Assembly: GCA_023249105.1 (NCBI GenBank)
Contig: JAHFDG010000011.1
Coordinates: 1 to 64,000, forward strand
DNA from: Candidatus Methanoperedens sp.
Lineage (GTDB): Archaea > Halobacteriota > Methanosarcinia > Methanosarcinales > Methanoperedenaceae
DNA: 64,000 nt
Direction: 5' to 3'
The notes beneath the pieces were generated by a model that ran no database searches, had not been told where the DNA came from, and was given only the letters and a program-made list of their open reading frames with translations. Numbering within the stretch: the first letter of the stretch is position 1; every line of letters starts with the position of its first letter. Shown here piece after piece: positions 4,596-14,123 of this stretch. The position numbers and the translations under genes were made by a program.

Positions 4596-5921
4596 ATGGA
4601 TAATCATAAAGATAAGTTGAGATCAGTAATTGAAGAATACTTGAGAAAAGAACTACCAGACTCGAAAGAGAGAGCGACCAGTCTGAAAATAGAAAGCGAT
4701 CTGATAAATGATATCGTGGGTCCGAGGCGGGCTGGAAAGACTTATTTAATGTACTTTACCATAAAAAAACTTCTGAGTACCGGGATAGAAAAAGAAGCCA
4801 CCATATACATAAACTTTGAAAACAGAAAACTGCTGCCTTTAACTCCAGAATATTTTAATGATTTAATAGATGTTATCCATGCTAAGAGGCTTTTCGAAAA
4901 ACATGAGACGGTATTCATTTTCCTTGATGAGGTCCAGAGGATCGAGGATTGGGAAAAATACATAAGAAGCATATACGACGAATTTAAAGGGAAAATAAAG
5001 ATATTTGTGTCCGGTTCGACTTCAAAACTGACAGAATCCGAACTTAGTTATTTGCTCACCGGCCGGCATTTAACAACACAGGTCTATCCATTAAGCTTCA
5101 GAGAATTCCTATCATTCAAAGGTTTCGATATAAAAGAATATTTTATCGAGGAAGATATCGCCTTGATAAAAGAATATTTCAGAGAATACTTAGAGTTTGG
5201 GGGATTTCCGGAAGTCGCTCTGCTCGGGTCAGGGAAAGAAGAACTAGTACAAACATTATTTTCAGATATAATAAATAGAGACATACTCCCAAAAGCAAAA
5301 CGAAGGGGCGAAATTATTGAGGACCTTGCGTATTTCTTATGTTCAAACTCAGGAAAACTGGCAAGTTTCGGAAAGTTAACAGGTACACTGAACTCGATGG
5401 GGATTAAAGTGTCAGTACCTACTTTCGAGAAATACTTCTCAATTATGAAGGAAGCGTTCCTTTTCTTTGACCTAACAATATACTCATACAAAGTTAAGGA
5501 TCAGATGCAGTATCCCAGAAAGATATACTGTGTAGACCCGGGTTTTATAAATTTTGCAGGGTTTAAATTTTCAGAAGACAGAGGAAGATTAATGGAAAAT
5601 CTGGTTGCAATGGAACTGCAAAGGACAAAATCCAAAAGTCCTTTGATTGAGATATTTTATTGGAAGGATCACCAGGGAAGGGAAGTTGATTTTGTTATCA
5701 GAAAAGGTCTTGAGGTAAAGCAGCTCATCCAAGTGACAGAAGCTTCAAACAGAGAGGAAATACAAAAAAGAGAGAATACGGGACTGTTGAGGGCAGACGA
5801 AGAATTTAAATGCAACAATTTGCTTGTAATAACCTGGGAGTTTGAAGGAGAAGAGATAATAGATGGCAAAAAAATTGTTTATAAGCCGTTGTGGAAATGG
5901 CTTTTAAAATGTTCTGAATAA
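4596..5921 (+). CDS. AAA ATPase with DUF4143 C-terminal domain
   Basis: This 441-aa protein shows a Walker A (GPRRAGKTYLMYF, about residues 40-52), a Walker B (VFIFLDEVQRIEDW) and a sensor-type serine segment (IFVSGSTSKL). The region LTGRHLTTQVYPLSFREFL is typical of the AAA_14/DUF4143 family. The C-terminal part has a restriction-like fold signature (EIFYWKDHQGREVDFVI, with D and E..K). These ATPases are common in archaea and some bacteria; their role is poorly known. The gene is complete. Confidence 0.85.
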   Translation: MDNHKDKLRSVIEEYLRKELPDSKERATSLKIESDLINDIVGPRRAGKTYLMYFTIKKLLSTGIEKEATIYINFENRKLLPLTPEYFNDLIDVIHAKRLFEKHETVFIFLDEVQRIEDWEKYIRSIYDEFKGKIKIFVSGSTSKLTESELSYLLTGRHLTTQVYPLSFREFLSFKGFDIKEYFIEEDIALIKEYFREYLEFGGFPEVALLGSGKEELVQTLFSDIINRDILPKAKRRGEIIEDLAYFLCSNSGKLASFGKLTGTLNSMGIKVSVPTFEKYFSIMKEAFLFFDLTIYSYKVKDQMQYPRKIYCVDPGFINFAGFKFSEDRGRLMENLVAMELQRTKSKSPLIEIFYWKDHQGREVDFVIRKGLEVKQLIQVTEASNREEIQKRENTGLLRADEEFKCNNLLVITWEFEGEEIIDGKKIVYKPLWKWLLKCSE

Positions 5922-5999
5922 CCCAGGGCTGTGGTTTGCGATATCAGGGAACTTTGCAGGTACTGTCAAGTCTTCGTCAGGTAAAAGTAAATCGCTCAT
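5904..5999 (-). pseudogene. Possible 5' fragment of a lost gene, 31 codons
   Basis: A minus-strand ATG at 5999 opens a protein-like frame (MSDLLLPDEDLTVPAKFPDI...) that stops within the end of the convergent ATPase gene. The composition looks coding, but the frame is too short for a domain. It may be the leftover start of a gene cut off when the ATPase gene arrived. The protein is not recognised. Confidence 0.25.
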
Positions 6000-6163
6000 C
6001 TCAAGAAGGCAGCCACGAACGATATAATAATATATATAATATTTACAAAAACAGATTAGACAGAACCATCTTGTATAATACTTAATCGATTTTTCAACAT
6101 TAGTTGAATCGTATAATCTTTCATGACTTTACTAATATTAGGGAATCCTAAATTTACTGGGGC

Positions 6164-7036
6164 ATGGGATTCAAAGCAACAATACATCTTCTTAATGCTT
6201 CAACATTGGTGGCGGTTTCAGGAGCTTTCAGGCTCTTCATAGCAGTTTTATTTCTGGGAACAGAACCCAGAGTTTTAGCTTGTATAGCAGGTGGTCTTGT
6301 GATATATACAATATATACTCTGGATAGGGCACTTGAATGCAAAGAAGACATCGTGAACAGAAGCGAATTAACAGGTTCAAGAAAGGATATTGCCCTTCTT
6401 GTGTCCGTCTCAGCTTTTAGCATTGGAACCTATATTTTATTCGAAGAGGGATTATATATTCTGCCTTTTCTACCACTTGTAGTTGGTTATTTGTATAGCA
6501 AAGGCATAAAAATCTGTGGGTCAAATTTGAAGCTTAAGGGCGGCCTTGGAGTTAAGAATCTAGTTGTTGCTTTGACGTGGGGATCCTTTATCACCGGGAT
6601 TGCGGGAAAATCTGTAAACAATATTATTCCGTTAATTTTTGTTTTCTCTTTTTTCAGCAGCAAGGTTTTCATAAACTCGATAATATATGATTTTAAAGAT
6701 GTAAAGGGCGATTCGCTGGCTGGTATTAGAACTTTACCTGTACAGTTAGGTGAAAAGAAGACCAAGGCTTTTCTTTCGATTGTGCATATAATGATACATT
6801 TAGGTATGCTCCTAGCGACTATTATGAGATTCATTGTGTTTGAACCAATAATACTTTTGTATAGTTTCACTGCTGGCATAATCTGCATTAATTATTATTC
6901 CGTAGCTACCGAAACCGAACCAAGAGCCAGAAAACTTATACGTGAGTTCTTGGTCGATGGTGAATCTACTACTGAAGTTAGCCTGCGTCTACTTATAAAC
7001 TCTTTATTTCTTCGGAGCGCTCTTTATAATATTTGA
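6164..7036 (+). CDS. UbiA-family prenyltransferase
   Basis: This 290-aa integral membrane protein has about eight hydrophobic segments. The two Asp-rich motifs of UbiA enzymes are recognisable: a divergent first one in YTLDRALECKED (about residues 46-57) and a clear second one, YDFKDVKGDSLAGIRTLPVQLG (D-x-K-D-x-x-G-D). UbiA enzymes attach prenyl chains to aromatic or glycerol acceptors; in archaea they make DGGGP lipids or quinones. The first motif lacks the usual Asn, so the substrate is unknown. The 3' end overlaps the convergent FilR1 gene by 44 bases. Confidence 0.8.
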   Translation: MGFKATIHLLNASTLVAVSGAFRLFIAVLFLGTEPRVLACIAGGLVIYTIYTLDRALECKEDIVNRSELTGSRKDIALLVSVSAFSIGTYILFEEGLYILPFLPLVVGYLYSKGIKICGSNLKLKGGLGVKNLVVALTWGSFITGIAGKSVNNIIPLIFVFSFFSSKVFINSIIYDFKDVKGDSLAGIRTLPVQLGEKKTKAFLSIVHIMIHLGMLLATIMRFIVFEPIILLYSFTAGIICINYYSVATETEPRARKLIREFLVDGESTTEVSLRLLINSLFLRSALYNI

Positions 7037-7781
7037 AAAGTTCTTCTCCCCATTTTAAAGCAGATTTATCAAAACTTATCAAATCTCTTTGGGCATCGAA
7101 AGTACCATTTTTAAAGAAGAGAGAAAGGGAGAGAAATTTGCTGGTTACTACAAAAGCAAGTTTAATGTCATCATTTAAAATGTGTATGCTTGTATTATTG
7201 TAATCGGAAAATCTTTGGAGGATATTCCCATGCTCATTCTTAACTTTCTCAAAGACATCTTTAGTTAAGATTAGAGTAATGTGAACTTTTCGCTGAGCCA
7301 ACTGTAAAAAGAACGATGGATAGGCTGGATTAAATATCGGGGCGACTCCCATTACAAAATCTGATTGTGCAATATTTTCAAAAAATTCTGTATGTGGTTC
7401 GTACATATTTTCCAATCTATTTTCAATCAATCTGCAATTTCCTAATTCACCAATTCTTTCCAATAAGTGTTGTGGAATAGCTTCAACCAGATGTTTTTCC
7501 CAGAATTCTTCATTTTCTTCGATTACATGCAAAGTATTGATTAATGGCTGAAAAACCTTGGCTACAACTTTTCCGATTGGGGTTAGCACATAATGTTTAT
7601 TATCTTTGTAAATTAAATTCTTGGTTTCCATTTCCTTGATGCGGGGGAGAATCTCTGGAGAAGATATATTGAAATGGTCTCTAATTTCAGCTAAAGTCCT
7701 TGGTTCTTTGAGTAGCAAAAAGAGAATATTTTTTCGCTTCTCTGAAAATGCCAGAACACTTAACAGTCCTTTCGATTTCAT
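6993..7781 (-). CDS. FilR1-type winged-helix transcriptional regulator
   Basis: This is a 262-aa protein. The chosen ATG has aaggaag upstream; a TTG three codons earlier is also possible. An ArsR-like winged helix (about residues 10-75, RTLAEIRDHFNISSPEILPRI) precedes a FilR1/DUF1724 middle domain with the typical LxxxxPxHLLxRIGEL and MGVAPIFNPAYPSFF segments. The family is linked to methanogenesis regulation in Methanosarcina (Msr proteins) and filament formation in Methanothrix. The convergent UbiA gene may or may not be a target. Confidence 0.85.
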   Translation of the reverse strand: MKSKGLLSVLAFSEKRKNILFLLLKEPRTLAEIRDHFNISSPEILPRIKEMETKNLIYKDNKHYVLTPIGKVVAKVFQPLINTLHVIEENEEFWEKHLVEAIPQHLLERIGELGNCRLIENRLENMYEPHTEFFENIAQSDFVMGVAPIFNPAYPSFFLQLAQRKVHITLILTKDVFEKVKNEHGNILQRFSDYNNTSIHILNDDIKLAFVVTSKFLSLSLFFKNGTFDAQRDLISFDKSALKWGEELFKYYKERSEEIKSL

Positions 7782-8083
7782 CGGAATCAACTTCCTTGGA
7801 GATTTTTGATACCACTCAATTTAGTCTCTTCGGTTAGACTATAGATAAAGCTATCGGTGGACTAATCTGCGTGTAGAGTACGCATTCATTAAGAATTGGA
7901 ACTGTCAAACTTAGGTTATCAGTTAGATACTCAACGGCGGCAAATCACACTGAAATTATTTTTGATGAATATTCAAACCTGATTCAGTTTTAAAAAAAGT
8001 TTATTCGGATTCATATCACTTCAAGGAGCCTCTCTTTCTGAGGTCAAAAAGCACACCTTGCAGCAAGCTGCGGGGTATACAAT
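7782..8083. other. Intergenic stretch between the FilR1 gene and the RiPP operon end
   Basis: About 300 bases with no supported ORF. It holds the promoter side of the FilR1 gene and the downstream side of the RiPP operon. A short hairpin-like gcagc-aa-gctgc (about 8060-8071) lies just past the last RiPP gene and could serve as a terminator, but it has no T-tract. Confidence 0.35.
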
Positions 8084-9307
8084 TTAAAGCAAATGTTGTA
8101 CTTGCTCCGCTGCTTTTTTTCCAGAAGAGATGGCGGCTGACATCCCATATGGCATGAGATGGTGACTATCTACATGAGTATAATCACCCGCTAAAAAAAC
8201 GCGCTGGGACGGATGTATTTTTTCTGCAGCCCAGGCACCATAACTTTCCTCCGAAATAATCGGGCTAATCATGTCCCAATGATGATGGTCTGCAAATTTT
8301 ATTTGTTCCTCCCTGAAGTTGCCAAAACCCAGAGCATCAAGAGTCTGCAACGCCATTTTCACCATTTCTTTTGCATGCAATTTACGCACAGGTACGGATT
8401 TAATTCCCATGAAGTAAAAGTATAACAATACCAGACCATCAACAGCCGTTTTCTGCCGCACAACGGTACTGGTAGCAAGATCCGGGGTAGCAATGTACGA
8501 AAACTCAGGAATCAGGTTTTCCGGTATTGCTAAAACGCACAGACTTCCTGTGCCGTAACGAATTCCATCCAAAAAAAGCCTGCTGGGGCTTTCTGCACGG
8601 GCGATAACGCAAGATGCTTCATGGGCTGGTATCGAGCAAATAACGGCCTTTGCAGAAAGGTGCTTAATTTGCCCCCCTTCATTGACAGTAATAACAACAT
8701 TTTGTCCCTGATCATCGATACTAAGTACCTGCACCCCACAACGAAGCCGTGATGATATACCTTCAATCAAGCCAGCAACCAACGCTCCATTGCCGGTTTC
8801 ATAATGTCCCATCTGAAATACCTGGAAGGCATCAAGCCTCCTTTGAGGAATATATTCACCTATCTCACCGGGGTGAATCAACTGAAAAAAAGCATTTAAC
8901 AACTCATACGATGGCGGCGAAAGGTCGGATATATCATGTGCGCCTCCATTGACAAAAGTGGTAATCTCTTCGATATCATTGTTTCGAAAATCAATTTTTT
9001 CAAGACAATCCACAACACTTTCGCCAAACCTGGTACGTCCTTTCGAACTGACTCCAATCATGCCATTTTCTTCGATCAGTGGCGGTGGAGCGATCCCGGT
9101 CGGGAAGAATGCCGGTTCAATAGCAAAAACTGCTCCGATTTCATAGCTAACCCCCATTTTTTCACGGGTAAGCACACGCCCTCCGGCATTCGTTTTTTGT
9201 TCAAGCACGATAATGTCTTTATCACGCAATGCGTATGCCGCGGAAAGCCCGGCCAGTCCGGCGCCGACAACTATTACCTCCTTGCATTCGTCTTGAAATC
9301 TTTCCAT
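8084..9307 (-). CDS. FAD-dependent amine-oxidase-like oxidoreductase of the RiPP locus
   Basis: This 407-aa enzyme has an N-terminal dinucleotide-binding motif (VVGAGLAGLSAAYAL, about residues 13-27), the GG motif (NAGGRV), and a C-terminal FAD-contact segment (QRVFLAGDYTHVDSHHLMPYGMSAA). The fold is that of flavin monoamine oxidases and phytoene-desaturase relatives, which oxidise C-N or C-C bonds. It is the third enzyme of a minus-strand operon, 11 bases after the prenyltransferase, so it probably acts on the modified peptide or on the prenyl group; this is inferred from context only. It is of normal length and complete. Confidence 0.75.
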   Translation of the reverse strand: MERFQDECKEVIVVGAGLAGLSAAYALRDKDIIVLEQKTNAGGRVLTREKMGVSYEIGAVFAIEPAFFPTGIAPPPLIEENGMIGVSSKGRTRFGESVVDCLEKIDFRNNDIEEITTFVNGGAHDISDLSPPSYELLNAFFQLIHPGEIGEYIPQRRLDAFQVFQMGHYETGNGALVAGLIEGISSRLRCGVQVLSIDDQGQNVVITVNEGGQIKHLSAKAVICSIPAHEASCVIARAESPSRLFLDGIRYGTGSLCVLAIPENLIPEFSYIATPDLATSTVVRQKTAVDGLVLLYFYFMGIKSVPVRKLHAKEMVKMALQTLDALGFGNFREEQIKFADHHHWDMISPIISEESYGAWAAEKIHPSQRVFLAGDYTHVDSHHLMPYGMSAAISSGKKAAEQVQHLL

Positions 9308-9318
9308 TTTATCCCCTG

Positions 9319-10137
9319 CTAATAATACAAATTAAATGTGTGATATTCACCCGCATTGATATCATCAATATCCATCGCAATAATAATTTTGTTTGATCCT
9401 GTGGCAGAAAAAGCAGTTGAAAGCTGTCTGGATCCTATTTTAGCTATAAAGTCGGAAGCATCGTAAGGGATCATATGTGCCGAAGCGCCGACTTTATCTG
9501 TGGAAAAGCCAAAACTCACCCGGTGGCAGCGCTCTGCTAACATTGTTACTTTTTCTCCAACTATATCTCGCAGCAATGCGTTATGTTCGCGAATCTCATA
9601 ATCGTGCATAACAGGATAGACCTTTAAAGCCGAAGCTCCGGAAAAAACGAAATCAAACCCGAAAAGGAATCCCTTGTGAATCTTAAGGCGGCGGGCATCG
9701 GGTGAAATACCTGCAAAGCCAAGAGCATGTGTTTCCATAGCCGGGTAATCTCCCACAATGTGCCACAGTTTGATTCTCGATGAGACAATATCCGGTCTCA
9801 GGTCTATACCGACTACGTTATAACGCACTTTTTCGTATAGAAAATCTGTTCCTATTACCTCATGATACAGTGAACGATCTATAGGAACCATTTTCGCATA
9901 ATCCTCTAAAAAGGCAACTATTTTAGGATTAAGACCGGATCCTCCGTTATTCTTGTACCAGAGGTTAAACCGCAATGGATGCACCATGTCGCCACATACT
10001 TTACAGGAGCATTCCAGATGAGCTTCGGGCGAAGCCCTCAATAAATCCAGAAATGGAACGAAAAGCGGTGTTGCACTGGATGCAAAGGATTTCAAATGCT
10101 TCCGGTATTTTTCTAATTGCACATTGGCTGATTGCAT
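9319..10137 (-). CDS. PatF/LynF-type peptide prenyltransferase (cyanobactin prenyltransferase family)
   Basis: This 272-aa protein matches what I recall of the PatF/LynF/PagF family in order: LECSCKV followed by RFNLWY (about residues 41-61; the family has a catalytic Glu in LExSCK), GIDLRPDIVSSRIKLWHI (110-127), DYP, GFLFGFDFVFSG (146-157) and the ending NLYY. These ABBA-fold enzymes place isoprene units on Tyr, Trp, Ser/Thr or termini of ribosomal peptides. Family members are known from cyanobactin clusters; here the companions are a radical SAM enzyme and an FAD enzyme, with no PatA/PatG proteases. The gene lies 21 bases after the radical SAM gene. Trp in the precursor tail is the likely acceptor (inference). 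Confidence 0.75.
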   Translation of the reverse strand: MQSANVQLEKYRKHLKSFASSATPLFVPFLDLLRASPEAHLECSCKVCGDMVHPLRFNLWYKNNGGSGLNPKIVAFLEDYAKMVPIDRSLYHEVIGTDFLYEKVRYNVVGIDLRPDIVSSRIKLWHIVGDYPAMETHALGFAGISPDARRLKIHKGFLFGFDFVFSGASALKVYPVMHDYEIREHNALLRDIVGEKVTMLAERCHRVSFGFSTDKVGASAHMIPYDASDFIAKIGSRQLSTAFSATGSNKIIIAMDIDDINAGEYHTFNLYY

Positions 10138-10158
10138 GATTAAAGAAGTATCCTATTA

Positions 10159-11592
10159 TTAGATGGCGCGAGGTGGCATTCTGGTTTGATGCGGACAGTC
10201 CGGCGGGGCTTCATATATAGTACCGTAACAAGCAAGAGAATCCCTGAAACACCATCCTTTCACATATATACATCTTTCAAAATCGGTACAATTGTAACAT
10301 TCAGAATTTTGAAAAAGTTCGCGTGAAGGATTATTGAATCTGTGTATAGCATCGGAATTCCATACGCCCATAACTCCGTCTTCGAAAACATTCCCTACAG
10401 TGTAAGCCGGTTCATTTGGCGTTTGTTCACATAGGGTAACTGCTCCATCCGGCTTTACTAACATTTTGGTGCGCCCTCCTGAACAGATCGGTCGCTTTGC
10501 CCAGACCTCAGGTGGAAGATTCCTGGATCCGCCAGTTGTAATATTATTCTGCATGAAGATAAAAATATCAGGGAATTCTTCCTTGATCTGACTCTCCATG
10601 GATATAAGACGTTTTTTCTGTTCCATGGTCAGGAAAAGTCTGTCATTATGCCGGTACAGTCCCCTGCTGTATTGAACAAAATGAAACTCGTTTATCCCCA
10701 TCGGCGCAAGACGCCTGACAAGTTCCAGCGGAGCATCAGCATTATATGAAGTAAGCACTGCTTTTACTCTTGGACTGATCCCGGCTTCGATCAGATTTCG
10801 AAGAGTATCTTGCGCTTTAGAAAGATAGTTCTTGTGCCGGGACAAAAAAGAAGCGAGCCTGTTATCAGTGCTGTCCAGAGATACCTGCATCGGACGCAGC
10901 GCCCAGTGGGGCACGTTTTTATTACCTATGTTCAGGTCAGCCATCCTTTGGGCCTGCTCCGGCGAAACATGGCTCTTTGTGGAAACAAAGAATGAGAAAT
11001 TCCGTTTGTCCAACTCTTCCATAATTTCCATGGCATCCTGGCGGCAAAAAATATCAGCGCCGCCAATATCAACCAATGTGATTTCATTTTCTGCGATTTC
11101 ATCCAGAATGGGGATCCACTCATCCAGACTACGCTCCGCACACGGCTCACGTTCAGCATAACAGTAAATACAGTCGCATTGGCATCGGTTGGTAAAGCTA
11201 ATTGCGATGGTGATAGGACGCAGCATTCTGTGCGGTGTCATTGTGTAGTTGGCAAAGTCCGGGATCAGGTTTTCCATGGGCTTGTCAAAGGAAGGGGACT
11301 GCGGTCCTTCCAATGAAAAAAAGCCATCCAGATGGGCAAGTTCAGTAGTAATCTGCTCAATTTCTTCAGCACTTTGCCCGTCGGTAGCATTTATTATTCC
11401 CTGTGCGGCTGTTTTTATTTCTGCCCAGGTATTATTTCCATCAAAAAGAAGAATAAATATCGATTCAAAAGGTGAAAGCACACGTGTAACTTGCTTTTGC
11501 AGGGAATGCAAATATATAACCATGCAATTGCCATCATTCCTGAAACGCCAATTTTCCGATATCCTCGGCCTATCCGTATCTGAAAATACCAT
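10159..11592 (-). CDS. SPASM-domain radical SAM peptide maturase with N-terminal PqqD-like domain
   Basis: This 477-aa protein has three parts. Residues 8-95 look like a PqqD-type RiPP recognition element. The radical SAM core carries CxxxCxxC at C137, C141 and C144 (NRCQCDCIYCYAE). A Cys-rich SPASM region (about 375-465) begins PICSGGRTKMLVKPDGAVTLCEQ and continues through CYNCTDFERC and GWCF, enough for auxiliary Fe-S clusters. Such enzymes form thioether, C-C or C-O bonds in RiPP precursors. It is the first enzyme gene after the precursor, separated from it by a hairpin. The substrate is most likely the 54-aa peptide; the bond type is unknown. Confidence 0.9.
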   Translation of the reverse strand: MVFSDTDRPRISENWRFRNDGNCMVIYLHSLQKQVTRVLSPFESIFILLFDGNNTWAEIKTAAQGIINATDGQSAEEIEQITTELAHLDGFFSLEGPQSPSFDKPMENLIPDFANYTMTPHRMLRPITIAISFTNRCQCDCIYCYAEREPCAERSLDEWIPILDEIAENEITLVDIGGADIFCRQDAMEIMEELDKRNFSFFVSTKSHVSPEQAQRMADLNIGNKNVPHWALRPMQVSLDSTDNRLASFLSRHKNYLSKAQDTLRNLIEAGISPRVKAVLTSYNADAPLELVRRLAPMGINEFHFVQYSRGLYRHNDRLFLTMEQKKRLISMESQIKEEFPDIFIFMQNNITTGGSRNLPPEVWAKRPICSGGRTKMLVKPDGAVTLCEQTPNEPAYTVGNVFEDGVMGVWNSDAIHRFNNPSRELFQNSECYNCTDFERCIYVKGWCFRDSLACYGTIYEAPPDCPHQTRMPPRAI

Positions 11593-11646
11593 TTTTCTCC
11601 TGATTACTTGTCCCTATCCTGCCACTATTCCTAAAATTACTCCCTC

Positions 11647-11702
11647 CAAGCTCTCCCAAAACGAATGTAAACAAAATCAGTCACCAGTTTTGGGAGAGCT
11701 TG
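11647..11702 (-). terminator. Perfect 16-bp hairpin between RiPP precursor and enzyme genes
   Basis: Arms 11647-11662 and 11687-11702 are exact reverse complements (caagctctcccaaaac / gttttgggagagcttg) with a 24-nt loop. It lies 42 bases after the precursor stop and 54 bases before the radical SAM start. In many RiPP operons a hairpin here stabilises or attenuates the transcript so that precursor exceeds enzyme. No long T-tract follows, so partial read-through or mRNA stability is likelier than full termination. Confidence 0.65.
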
Positions 11703-11744
11703 CCTCCCGGTGTTAATTTGACACGGGAAGGGGGCGTTTACCGC

Positions 11745-11909
11745 TTACCAATGCCAGCCGTTTGCACATCCTTCACAGCCTACTGTTGCTGCCTTATGTG
11801 CTTCCGTTACAGCTTCTTTCAAAATCTTCGCATCGACATTCACATTCTTTGCCTTCAGTGCTTTCTGAAGGGCGGAAATTCCCTTTTCCTTATTGGTTGC
11901 GTCACTCAT
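11745..11909 (-). CDS. RiPP precursor peptide, 54 aa
   Basis: The ATG at 11909 follows a near-perfect ribosome site (ggaggtgat), so I prefer it to an upstream start that would add 20 aa. The leader (residues 1-43) is charged and helical with no Cys or Trp. The C-terminal tail GCEGCANGWHW puts two Cys (45, 48), two Trp (52, 54) and one His (53) in the last 11 residues, the usual look of a modified core. There is no homologue I can name. Cys could form thioethers; Trp could be prenylated or cross-linked. It is the first gene of the minus-strand operon. Confidence 0.7.
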   Translation of the reverse strand: MSDATNKEKGISALQKALKAKNVNVDAKILKEAVTEAHKAATVGCEGCANGWHW

Positions 11910-12222
11910 GGATATCACCTCCTCCATTGAATGTATTGTTCTAAATTCCTCGTATTTATTAGTAATCATTTATAATCTTAGATGAATCAAATAATATTAT
12001 ACTATTAAACTATACATAGGTTCATAAGTAATTTCACATAAATACATCACAGTAGCGCTGATTATGCATATTTATTCAGGTTGCTGTGTATAAAAACCAT
12101 TTATGGATTGCTGTTGTGGATCCTATTTTATAACACTATTAGATTATATATCGTACAAGTTAAACAATTCCTTAAAAGATTTTATATATTGGCAATGACT
12201 ACCCTCAAATCAGGGTGGTATT
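11910..12222. promoter_or_regulatory. Divergent promoter region, RiPP operon and C45 hydrolase gene
   Basis: The stretch is AT-rich with no gene. On the minus strand, attataaatga (about 11966-11976) is a TATA candidate for the precursor. On the plus strand, ttttatatatt (12179-12189) lies some 35 bases before the hydrolase ATG. A short hairpin (ccctcaaatcaggg, about 12202-12215) overlaps the hydrolase leader. Confidence 0.4.
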
Positions 12223-13627
12223 ATGAGACAAGATGAAATACTTAAAAAGGCACAGTTTAAAGAACAAAATGGCGTAAAGATTCTGCGCATTAAAGGCAAA
12301 CCATATGAGATGGGCTATCAGCATGGCTATTTATTAGCTGGTAGAATAGCCCTTATGATAAACAGGACACTTCTGGCTACTGCCGCTTATGTTGCCAAAC
12401 AGACAGGAGCGGATATTAAAAAAGCGCAGGAGATGTTGTGGACCGGACAGAAAAAGGCGGAACCGTTTCTTCCGGCGGAGTTTAAAGAAGAAATGAGGGG
12501 AATCGCCGACGGCGTAAAAGCCGCAGGCGTGAGCGTAACCCTTGAGCAGATATTGCTCTGGAATACCAACTATGACCAATGGTGTATCTATTCCCATCCC
12601 CATTACTGGCAGTGCGACAGCAAGGGAAATCCCGAGCATCCGGGCTTAACCCAACCGGCTGGCGGCGGGTGCGGCAGCTTTTGCGCCTGGGATGAATGGG
12701 CAGGCGGCGATGGTAAATTGATTTTCGGCAAGAATGAAGACAATTTCAACATGCCGGAGCAATTGGATAACCGGATGATGGTCATAGCCGACCCGGATAA
12801 CGGGTTTGGTCACGCCTTCCTGACTTATCCGGGGATGATCGGCCTGGACGGGGGCGTAAATGAGGCTGGTTTTGAGATGATGACGCAACTGAACTCCATA
12901 CAATACGAAAGCATGGAAGGCTGCGGCATTGCCATATTCACACGCCTGCTGCTGACCCATGCAAGTACGGTGGATGATGCCATCAAAATATTCCAGGAGC
13001 CGGTGCGCAGGCATTGCATACCATGTGGCAGATGCCAAAGCCAAAAAGGCGGCGGTTGTTGAAACGTCTTCCAGAATGGTTTGTGTTCGCTATCCTATGC
13101 CCAATGTCAAAGCGATGTGGCAGACAAACCATTCCAACTGCTATCCGGGCTGGATGGGTTATTCGGGATACAATATGGTTGCAGACCAGGTCCTTGTGAA
13201 CGAACTAAAGGATACCTCCACTATTGAAAACTGGCAGGACAGCCTTAAAGAGCCGTATAATTTTTATGTCCAGGCGCCCAGCCGTTTTGAACGGTACGGG
13301 CAGTTGATCCACGAATATTATGGCAAAATCACTCCGGAAAATGCCATAAAAATATTAAGCGACCGCTACGACCCTTATACGCGAATGACCCGGCCGGTGG
13401 ATTTTCCCTCCTGGACTAATAATATCCTCTGTACCATATGTGCTGTGTATCCTGATTTTACTTATCAGGCGCAAGAGCCTGTGGGAACGTTTAAAGCCCA
13501 TATCGCCAATATGTGGAGCCTTGTGGCTTATCCCGAAACAGGAGATATCTGGCTGGCAATAAATAATTTCCCGGCGCAGTATGGCGGGTATGAACATTTC
13601 AATTTAAAGGAATTGCTGGGTCGTTAA
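12223..13627 (+). pseudogene. C45-family Ntn hydrolase/acyltransferase, frameshifted
   Basis: Two overlapping frames make one protein of about 467 aa. The first (12223-13062) holds the N-terminal half with KGKPYEMGYQHG and the Ntn-nucleophile region GGCGSFCAW followed by GKLIFGKNEDN, as in acyl-CoA:6-APA acyltransferase (peptidase C45) relatives. Near 13005-13015 the sense moves to the second frame (AGIAYHVADAKAKKAAVVE... to the stop at 13625). One missing base there would explain it; a sequencing error is also possible. The gene is divergent from the RiPP precursor. A link to peptide processing is only positional. Confidence 0.7.
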
Positions 13628-13709
13628 TAAAAGCGTGTCCTATCCTCAAAATCTACAAATGAGTATTATTATATAGTATGAATGTGTAGCCTGTAAATGG
13701 TGGTAAAAG

Positions 13710-14123
13710 GTGGATATCAGCGGTATCTGGTACAACGAACTCGGATCGATGATGGAATTAAGTGTTTCAGGGAATGTGATTAAAGGTAAATATCAAACAA
13801 AAGTTGGAGGCGCGCCGGGAATTTATCCTCTGGCGGGATATTTGAATGTGCCCAACCCCAATGGTATTGCTGTTGGCTGGACGGTTCTCTGGAATAACCA
13901 GTTTGGAAATAAGCAAAGTCTTACATCATGGGCAGGTCAATACCAGCTCGCCGACGGGATTGAGGAAATATACACATTCTGGCTGCTTGTGAGGGAATTG
14001 GAGCATGCTGAGGACTGGTCAGCTACAAACATAGGTCAGGATACATTTACCCGCAATAAACCAACTGAAAAGATGATTCTGAGGGCAAAGAAAAGAGGAA
14101 AATTTTCCCATCCAATCCAATGA
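13710..14123 (+). CDS. Avidin/streptavidin family biotin-binding protein
   Basis: This 137-aa protein starts with GTG after a purine-rich site. It follows streptavidin along its length: GIWYNELGS (biotin contacts N and S), KGKYQTKVG (Tyr), GWTVLWNNQFGN (Trp79 equivalent), SLTSWAGQY (Ser88, Thr90, Trp92 equivalents), FWLLV (Trp108), DWSATNIGQDTFTR (Trp120, Asp128). Only Ser45 of streptavidin is replaced, by Thr. No signal peptide is visible, so it may act in the cytoplasm or be released on lysis. It lies 82 bases after the C45 hydrolase pseudogene. Avidins are known mostly in vertebrates, fungi and bacteria; an archaeal copy suggests transfer. Confidence 0.9.
   Translation: MDISGIWYNELGSMMELSVSGNVIKGKYQTKVGGAPGIYPLAGYLNVPNPNGIAVGWTVLWNNQFGNKQSLTSWAGQYQLADGIEEIYTFWLLVRELEHAEDWSATNIGQDTFTRNKPTEKMILRAKKRGKFSHPIQ

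Follow-up and report, generated by a model that had tools for sequence, protein, structure and literature searches.

To understand what a 54-aa peptide gene followed by genes for a radical SAM enzyme, a cyanobactin-type prenyltransferase and a flavoprotein might make in an archaeon, we examined a 64,000-nt stretch of DNA from the methane-eating archaeon Candidatus Methanoperedens sp. (hereafter the window; GCA_023249105.1, contig JAHFDG010000011.1, positions 1 to 64,000), which belongs to a 3.28 Mb, 134-contig genome. An initial annotation from sequence alone had described four tightly spaced minus-strand genes, encoding a precursor, a SPASM radical SAM enzyme with a PqqD-like domain, a PatF/LynF-like prenyltransferase and an FAD amine-oxidase-like protein, without the PatA/PatG proteases of cyanobactin clusters, and had proposed a new class of natural product. 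We found that the four genes are present as described. The interpretation was only partly supported, as detailed below.

A conserved four-gene cassette

Family searches placed each enzyme: Radical_SAM (5.6e-15) and SPASM (2.1e-10) for the radical SAM protein, DUF5838, the PatF family PF19156 (1.1e-20; 74.6 bits versus a gathering score of 28.8), for the prenyltransferase and Amino_oxidase (2.9e-21) for the FAD protein. The peptide matched no family. The enzyme genes are separated by gaps of 21 and 11 nt, and the peptide and radical SAM genes by 152 nt. The precursor gene has a strong Shine–Dalgarno sequence, which is conserved as AGGAGGTGA in all copies (Table 1). Between the precursor and enzyme genes lies a hairpin (z −2.9 and −3.9), supported by one compensatory base pair between the window and genome G015 but absent from G058; it may be an RNA element that sets the peptide:enzyme ratio. 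Just upstream of the ribosome site, genomes G006, G007 and G023 carry a palindrome (AAACATT-N6-AATGTTT), a possible operator or leader hairpin, although this is speculative. The window has only a degenerate copy, and no copy within 2 mismatches was found there.

Table 1 Features of the cassette and its surroundings in the window
Position	Strand	Feature	Details
11745..11909	−	Putative RiPP precursor peptide	54 aa; leader with LQKALKAKNVNVD, core VGCEGCANGWHW
11913..11924	−	Shine–Dalgarno region of the precursor gene	GGAGGAGGTGAT
11925..11941		Degenerate copy of the palindrome	Possible operator or leader hairpin, speculative
11647..11702	−	Hairpin between precursor and enzyme genes	AAGCTCTCCCAAAA...TTTTGGGAGAGCTT
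10159..11592	−	SPASM radical SAM peptide maturase (from sequence)	CX3CX2C at C137/C141/C144; possible N-terminal leader-binding domain
9319..10137	−	PatF/LynF/TruF-type ABBA peptide prenyltransferase (predicted fold)	E42 aligns with PagF E51, S208 with PagF F222
9352..9945	−	Exchanged prenyltransferase block (approximate extent)	aa 65–262; exchanged between type A and type B cassettes
8084..9307	−	FAD-dependent amine-oxidase-family protein	Nearest NCBIfam models HpnE, protoporphyrinogen oxidase, PigB and phytoene desaturases, all far below cutoff
6164..7036	+	UbiA-family membrane prenyltransferase	Beside the cassette in the window and G015 only
12223..13627	+	C45/AAT-family acyltransferase gene	Split into two overlapping frames
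13710..14123	+	Avidin-family protein	PF01382, 6e-26

To test whether this arrangement could be due to chance, we searched 60 genomes and found the transferase in six, counting the window's own (about 6 of 31 genomes of the genus). All four genes occur in the same order in G006, G007, G015 and G058, in which the peptide is 74–93% identical with an invariant C-ANGWHW end, so the arrangement is not due to chance. There are also two partial copies: G009 has the transferase end and the FAD gene at a contig start, and G023 has the peptide cut by a contig end. Only five complete copies are known, mostly from draft MAGs. PatA/PatG-type proteases are absent from the window cassette, and from the other complete cassettes as judged by gene order and ORFs.

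DNA homology begins just upstream of the peptide and ends at the FAD stop codon. Most neighbours differ (by our reading of the ORFs, an ABC transporter, a GTPase-like gene, a CheD-like gene and so on), except that G015 and the window share the insertion site. The cassette therefore appears to move as a unit, without a transposase of its own. The core genes IlvD and RNase J of G058 are 71% identical to those of the window, whereas its radical SAM and FAD proteins are 88–89% identical, which suggests horizontal transfer, although a misbinned 5.4 kb contig cannot be excluded. Scans of viral contigs for close relatives of the transferase and the radical SAM enzyme returned nothing, as did plasmid searches for the transferase and the FAD protein, giving no sign of a viral or plasmid carrier there. 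PHROGs gave only weak radical SAM/Fe-S and nucleotide-binding-end matches. We considered the neighbouring C45 acyltransferase, UbiA and FilR1 genes as cassette members and rejected them because only G015 shares them.

PRENYLTRANSFERASE

A search with phmmer against the PDB aligned the whole protein with SmiF (1.2e-23), KgpF and others. TIGR04445, the LynF/TruF/PatF model, was its only NCBIfam match (4.5e-23) but at 82.1 bits lay below the 140-bit cutoff, placing the enzyme in the wider family and outside the curated subfamily. To examine the fold, we used AlphaFold with an alignment of archaeal and cyanobacterial homologues, which gave a model with pLDDT 94.2 and pTM 0.90. Foldseek ranked the Trp prenyltransferase KgpF first (TM 0.90), followed by LimF, DciF, PagF, PirF and PatF, with TM values of about 0.8–0.9. 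One result that would have counted against the initial annotation, a better alignment to an unrelated fold, was thus not obtained. Invariant family residues are retained (H14, R56, D112, K123, GFDF 160–163, Y174, G210 and LYY). In a tree of the exchanged region, the archaeal enzymes formed one clade apart from all cyanobacterial ones (100/100), albeit with long branches, and identity to the cyanobactin enzymes is 19–27%.

S208 aligns with the position that differs between the PagF entries 5tty and 6pgn, the latter titled a PagF single mutant with GPP. In the PagF/PirF enzymes this position sets donor size, and E51 is the catalytic base. A single-residue donor switch is mentioned in PMC12076493. 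The small residue here (S208 in type A and N208 in type B) suggests a donor longer than C5.

Exchange of a block within the transferase gene

Comparison of the cassettes revealed two types. Between type A (the window, G006 and G007, with the G009 fragment also of this type) and type B (G015 and G058), the flanking DNA is about 90% identical, but across transferase residues from about 65 to 262 DNA identity drops to roughly 42–58%. Synonymous divergence is 0.1–0.5 before the block and saturated within it, whereas A–A and B–B pairs stay low throughout. On this basis we rejected positive selection on a few sites in favour of recombination. G015 is the closest of these genomes by core genes (94–96%) and shares the insertion site, so the exchange is recent. 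The peptide core barely changes (GCEGC in type A, GCDSC and GCEQC in type B, all followed by ANGWHW).

The radical SAM family and its peptides

We next asked whether radical SAM homologues also lie beside such peptides. Homologues occur in Methanosarcina-type genomes at 42–43% and 35% identity, and on rhizobial plasmids at 28–30%. Each lies beside a small GCxxC peptide: ...VGCDQCSNGMRW in G431, apparently Methanosarcina acetivorans C2A (5,751,492 bp; 42% identity), ...VGCGFCEVCITACTDCVAYS in G216 and G341 (both Methanosarcina), and ...GCDSCTVCPCMICW in Rhizobium and Mesorhizobium. A profile of the Methanoperedens peptides scored the G431, Rhizobium and Mesorhizobium peptides above all of 1,000 shuffles, with the Methanosarcina homologue at 22.7 bits, but not the G216 peptide. 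These results indicate that the 54-aa ORF is a member of a real precursor family, and that GCxxC is the most likely radical SAM target. The PqqD-like domain claimed in the initial annotation was not established: no Pfam or NCBIfam model matched it, and although a profile of the N-terminal domain had PqqD (5sxy) as its top PDB hit, the E value was only 0.42, so that the domain is plausible but unproven.

The G431 locus (4905–8731 of the fetched region), for which we found no description, provided further insight. After the peptide (core GCDQCSNGMRW) and the radical SAM gene come a 281-aa orphan and, overlapping it, a 412-aa protein that matches monodomain terpene cyclases (8paj 1.4e-57, MstE 3e-24) and shares the DADST motif with 8paj. 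The orphan contains GYEFDSNGNWVLKTY, which resembles the PatF signature GFDFxxxGxxxxxxY, although profile comparison with the PatF family gave a probability of only 12% over 50 residues. An ABBA transferase together with an MstE-like cyclase acting on Trp is a known pairing in NctPC (PMC13290415), and the G431 peptide has Trp only at its C-terminus. Prenylation followed by cyclization is therefore a reasonable reading of this locus and supports the C-terminal Trp as acceptor.

Comparison with known pathways

None of 19 cyanobacterial PatF loci has a radical SAM homologue or a CX3CX2C ORF of 200 aa or more within about 8 kb, or to the contig end where nearer. The radical SAM family was also absent from the 19 PatF-bearing cyanobacterial genomes, but that search lacked a positive control and is only supportive, and the neighbourhood comparison is the firmer test. 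Literature searches for prenyltransferases with radical SAM enzymes in RiPPs, archaea or Methanoperedens gave no description of this combination among the titles and abstracts of open-licence papers scanned.

Contrary to the initial annotation, ABBA peptide prenyltransferases are no longer confined to cyanobactins. MppC carries out leader-dependent Trp geranylation after a cross-linking enzyme in a lanthipeptide pathway (PMC12715784), but it pairs with a lanthionine synthetase and a Nif11-like leader in a cyanobacterium, whereas here there is a radical SAM enzyme and a short unrelated leader in an archaeon. NctPC-type ribosomal peptides carry polycyclic isoprenoids (Hubrich et al. 2024, as reviewed in PMC13290415). 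They share with the Methanosarcina locus an MstE-like cyclase and the idea of an isoprenoid on Trp, but NctPC is a fused enzyme, the review never mentions radical SAM, and the window locus has a flavoprotein instead of a cyclase. The cyanobactin enzymes KgpF, LimF, PagF, PirF and DciF are similar in length and predicted fold to the archaeal transferase, which has a radical SAM partner instead of PatA/PatG-type proteases nearby. PalQ/ComQ enzymes act on the C-terminal Trp of a ribosomal peptide, the likely acceptor here, but have an isoprene synthase fold, and the pal cluster has three genes (kinase, peptide and transferase) and no radical SAM (PMC10853753). The radical SAM enzyme has the domains of SPASM maturases of the sactipeptide, ranthipeptide, mycofactocin and PqqE types and a small Cys-containing peptide beside its gene, but it reaches no curated subfamily cutoff (57 and 45 bits versus 265 and 381 for mycofactocin and PqqE), and its peptide family has its own GCxxC core.

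Proposed pathway and alternatives

Considering these data together, we propose that the locus is a compact, horizontally moving biosynthetic cassette for a lipidated RiPP, a reading to which we assign a probability of roughly 0.68. In this model, the helical leader of the peptide (LQKALKxKNVxVD) is bound by the radical SAM enzyme, probably through its N-terminal domain, and the enzyme cross-links one or both cysteines of the GCxxC core, most likely as a thioether. The PatF-type enzyme would then attach an isoprenoid, probably longer than C5, to the C-terminal Trp of ...NGWHW, although W52 or H53 are not excluded, and the flavoprotein would finally oxidize either the isoprenoid or an aromatic residue. 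No protease, exporter or immunity gene is in the cassette, so leader removal and export would use host proteins or not occur. Our analysis demonstrates the gene set, its conserved order, the enzyme families, the prenyltransferase fold (as a high-confidence prediction), the peptide family, the mobility and the block exchange, whereas every chemical step, including peptide prenylation itself, is inferred, with no product, expression or activity data behind it. The proposed new class of natural product likewise remains an inference. The link between Trp and the transferase is not strict, because the G216/G341 peptides lack the terminal Trp and the rhizobial ones have it without an annotated prenyltransferase. 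The presence of radical SAM homologues beside related peptides, and the operon's combination of a SPASM enzyme, a PatF-fold transferase and an amine-oxidase-family flavoprotein without PatA/PatG, agree with the initial annotation; the mobility, block exchange and terpene cyclase locus go beyond it.

Two further possibilities specify this model rather than compete with it. The FAD enzyme, the least understood part, may act on the isoprenoid by desaturation, dehydroxylation or oxidative cyclization to give a terpenoid–peptide hybrid, since its highest-scoring NCBIfam model is HpnE (hydroxysqualene dehydroxylase), phytoene desaturases appear further down the list, and in G431 its position is taken by the terpene cyclase. 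This remains tentative: all scores are far below cutoff, structure prediction reached a pLDDT of only 36, and amine-oxidase-family enzymes have very varied substrates. It is also possible, but doubtful on present evidence, that the product is a secreted signal or toxin against relatives, with two lipid chemotypes on nearly the same peptide kept diverse like ComQ/ComX pherotypes. The block exchange, patchy distribution, varied insertion sites and a C-terminal Trp as in PalX and ComX-like peptides (PMC10853753) fit this idea. However, the cassette has no transporter, immunity or receptor gene, only five complete copies are known, and in ComX systems the peptide diverges too, whereas here the core is almost invariant.

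Two other readings are less likely. A membrane-anchored, peptide-derived redox cofactor rather than an antibiotic or signal, in which Cys cross-linking and flavin-dependent Trp oxidation make a quinone-like centre that the isoprenoid anchors in the membrane of an archaeon that passes electrons outside the cell, would fit the best NCBIfam matches of the radical SAM enzyme (mycofactocin and GeoRSP maturases, with PqqE also listed), the flavoprotein as last enzyme, the Cys- and Trp-rich core and the lack of exporter, protease or immunity genes. We consider it unlikely because those matches are far below cutoff, the cassette is patchy and moves between sites, which is unusual for a core electron carrier, and the related loci found in other taxa lack the FAD gene. 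Action of the transferase on a small molecule, with its position in a RiPP operon being incidental, is very unlikely: some family members accept free or protected amino acids in vitro (LynF/PagF, PMC7253389), but the nearest folds are all peptide prenyltransferases, gene order is fixed in five genomes and no small-molecule biosynthesis genes accompany it.

If our model is right, this would be the first PatF-type peptide prenylation in Archaea, which have abundant isoprenoid diphosphates but few known peptide natural products, and, as far as our searches reach, the first pairing of radical SAM peptide chemistry with prenylation. The apparent presence of a sister locus in M. acetivorans, a genetically tractable methanogen, makes the question directly testable, and the block exchange is a natural experiment on donor or acceptor specificity, with nearly the same peptide and two enzyme cores. 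A broader and more tentative hypothesis is that Methanosarcinales archaea make terpenoid–peptide hybrids. In this view, one radical SAM/GCxxC peptide family acquired different isoprenoid machinery in different lineages (a PatF-type transferase plus flavin oxidase in Methanoperedens; an unrecognized ABBA-like transferase plus class II terpene cyclase in what appears to be M. acetivorans), and in Methanoperedens the transferase's barrel is swapped as a block between cassettes to change the lipid on a constant peptide.

Surroundings of the cassette and related loci

The C45/AAT-family gene that is split in the window is intact (471 aa) in G015 (12308–13723 of the fetched region L012), which indicates a frameshift or assembly error. 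The avidin-family gene also lies next to the cassette. A related Methanosarcina locus in G470 (L062:4941–7872) has frame breaks in both the precursor and the 281-aa gene, and no cyclase was found by tblastn within the 12 kb fetched, consistent with a decaying copy or sequencing errors. In G216 (L054:10257–13620) and G341 (L058:9107–10714), the radical SAM/GCxxC peptide pair lies next to a CRISPR-like repeat array and genes that, by appearance only, resemble type III CRISPR.
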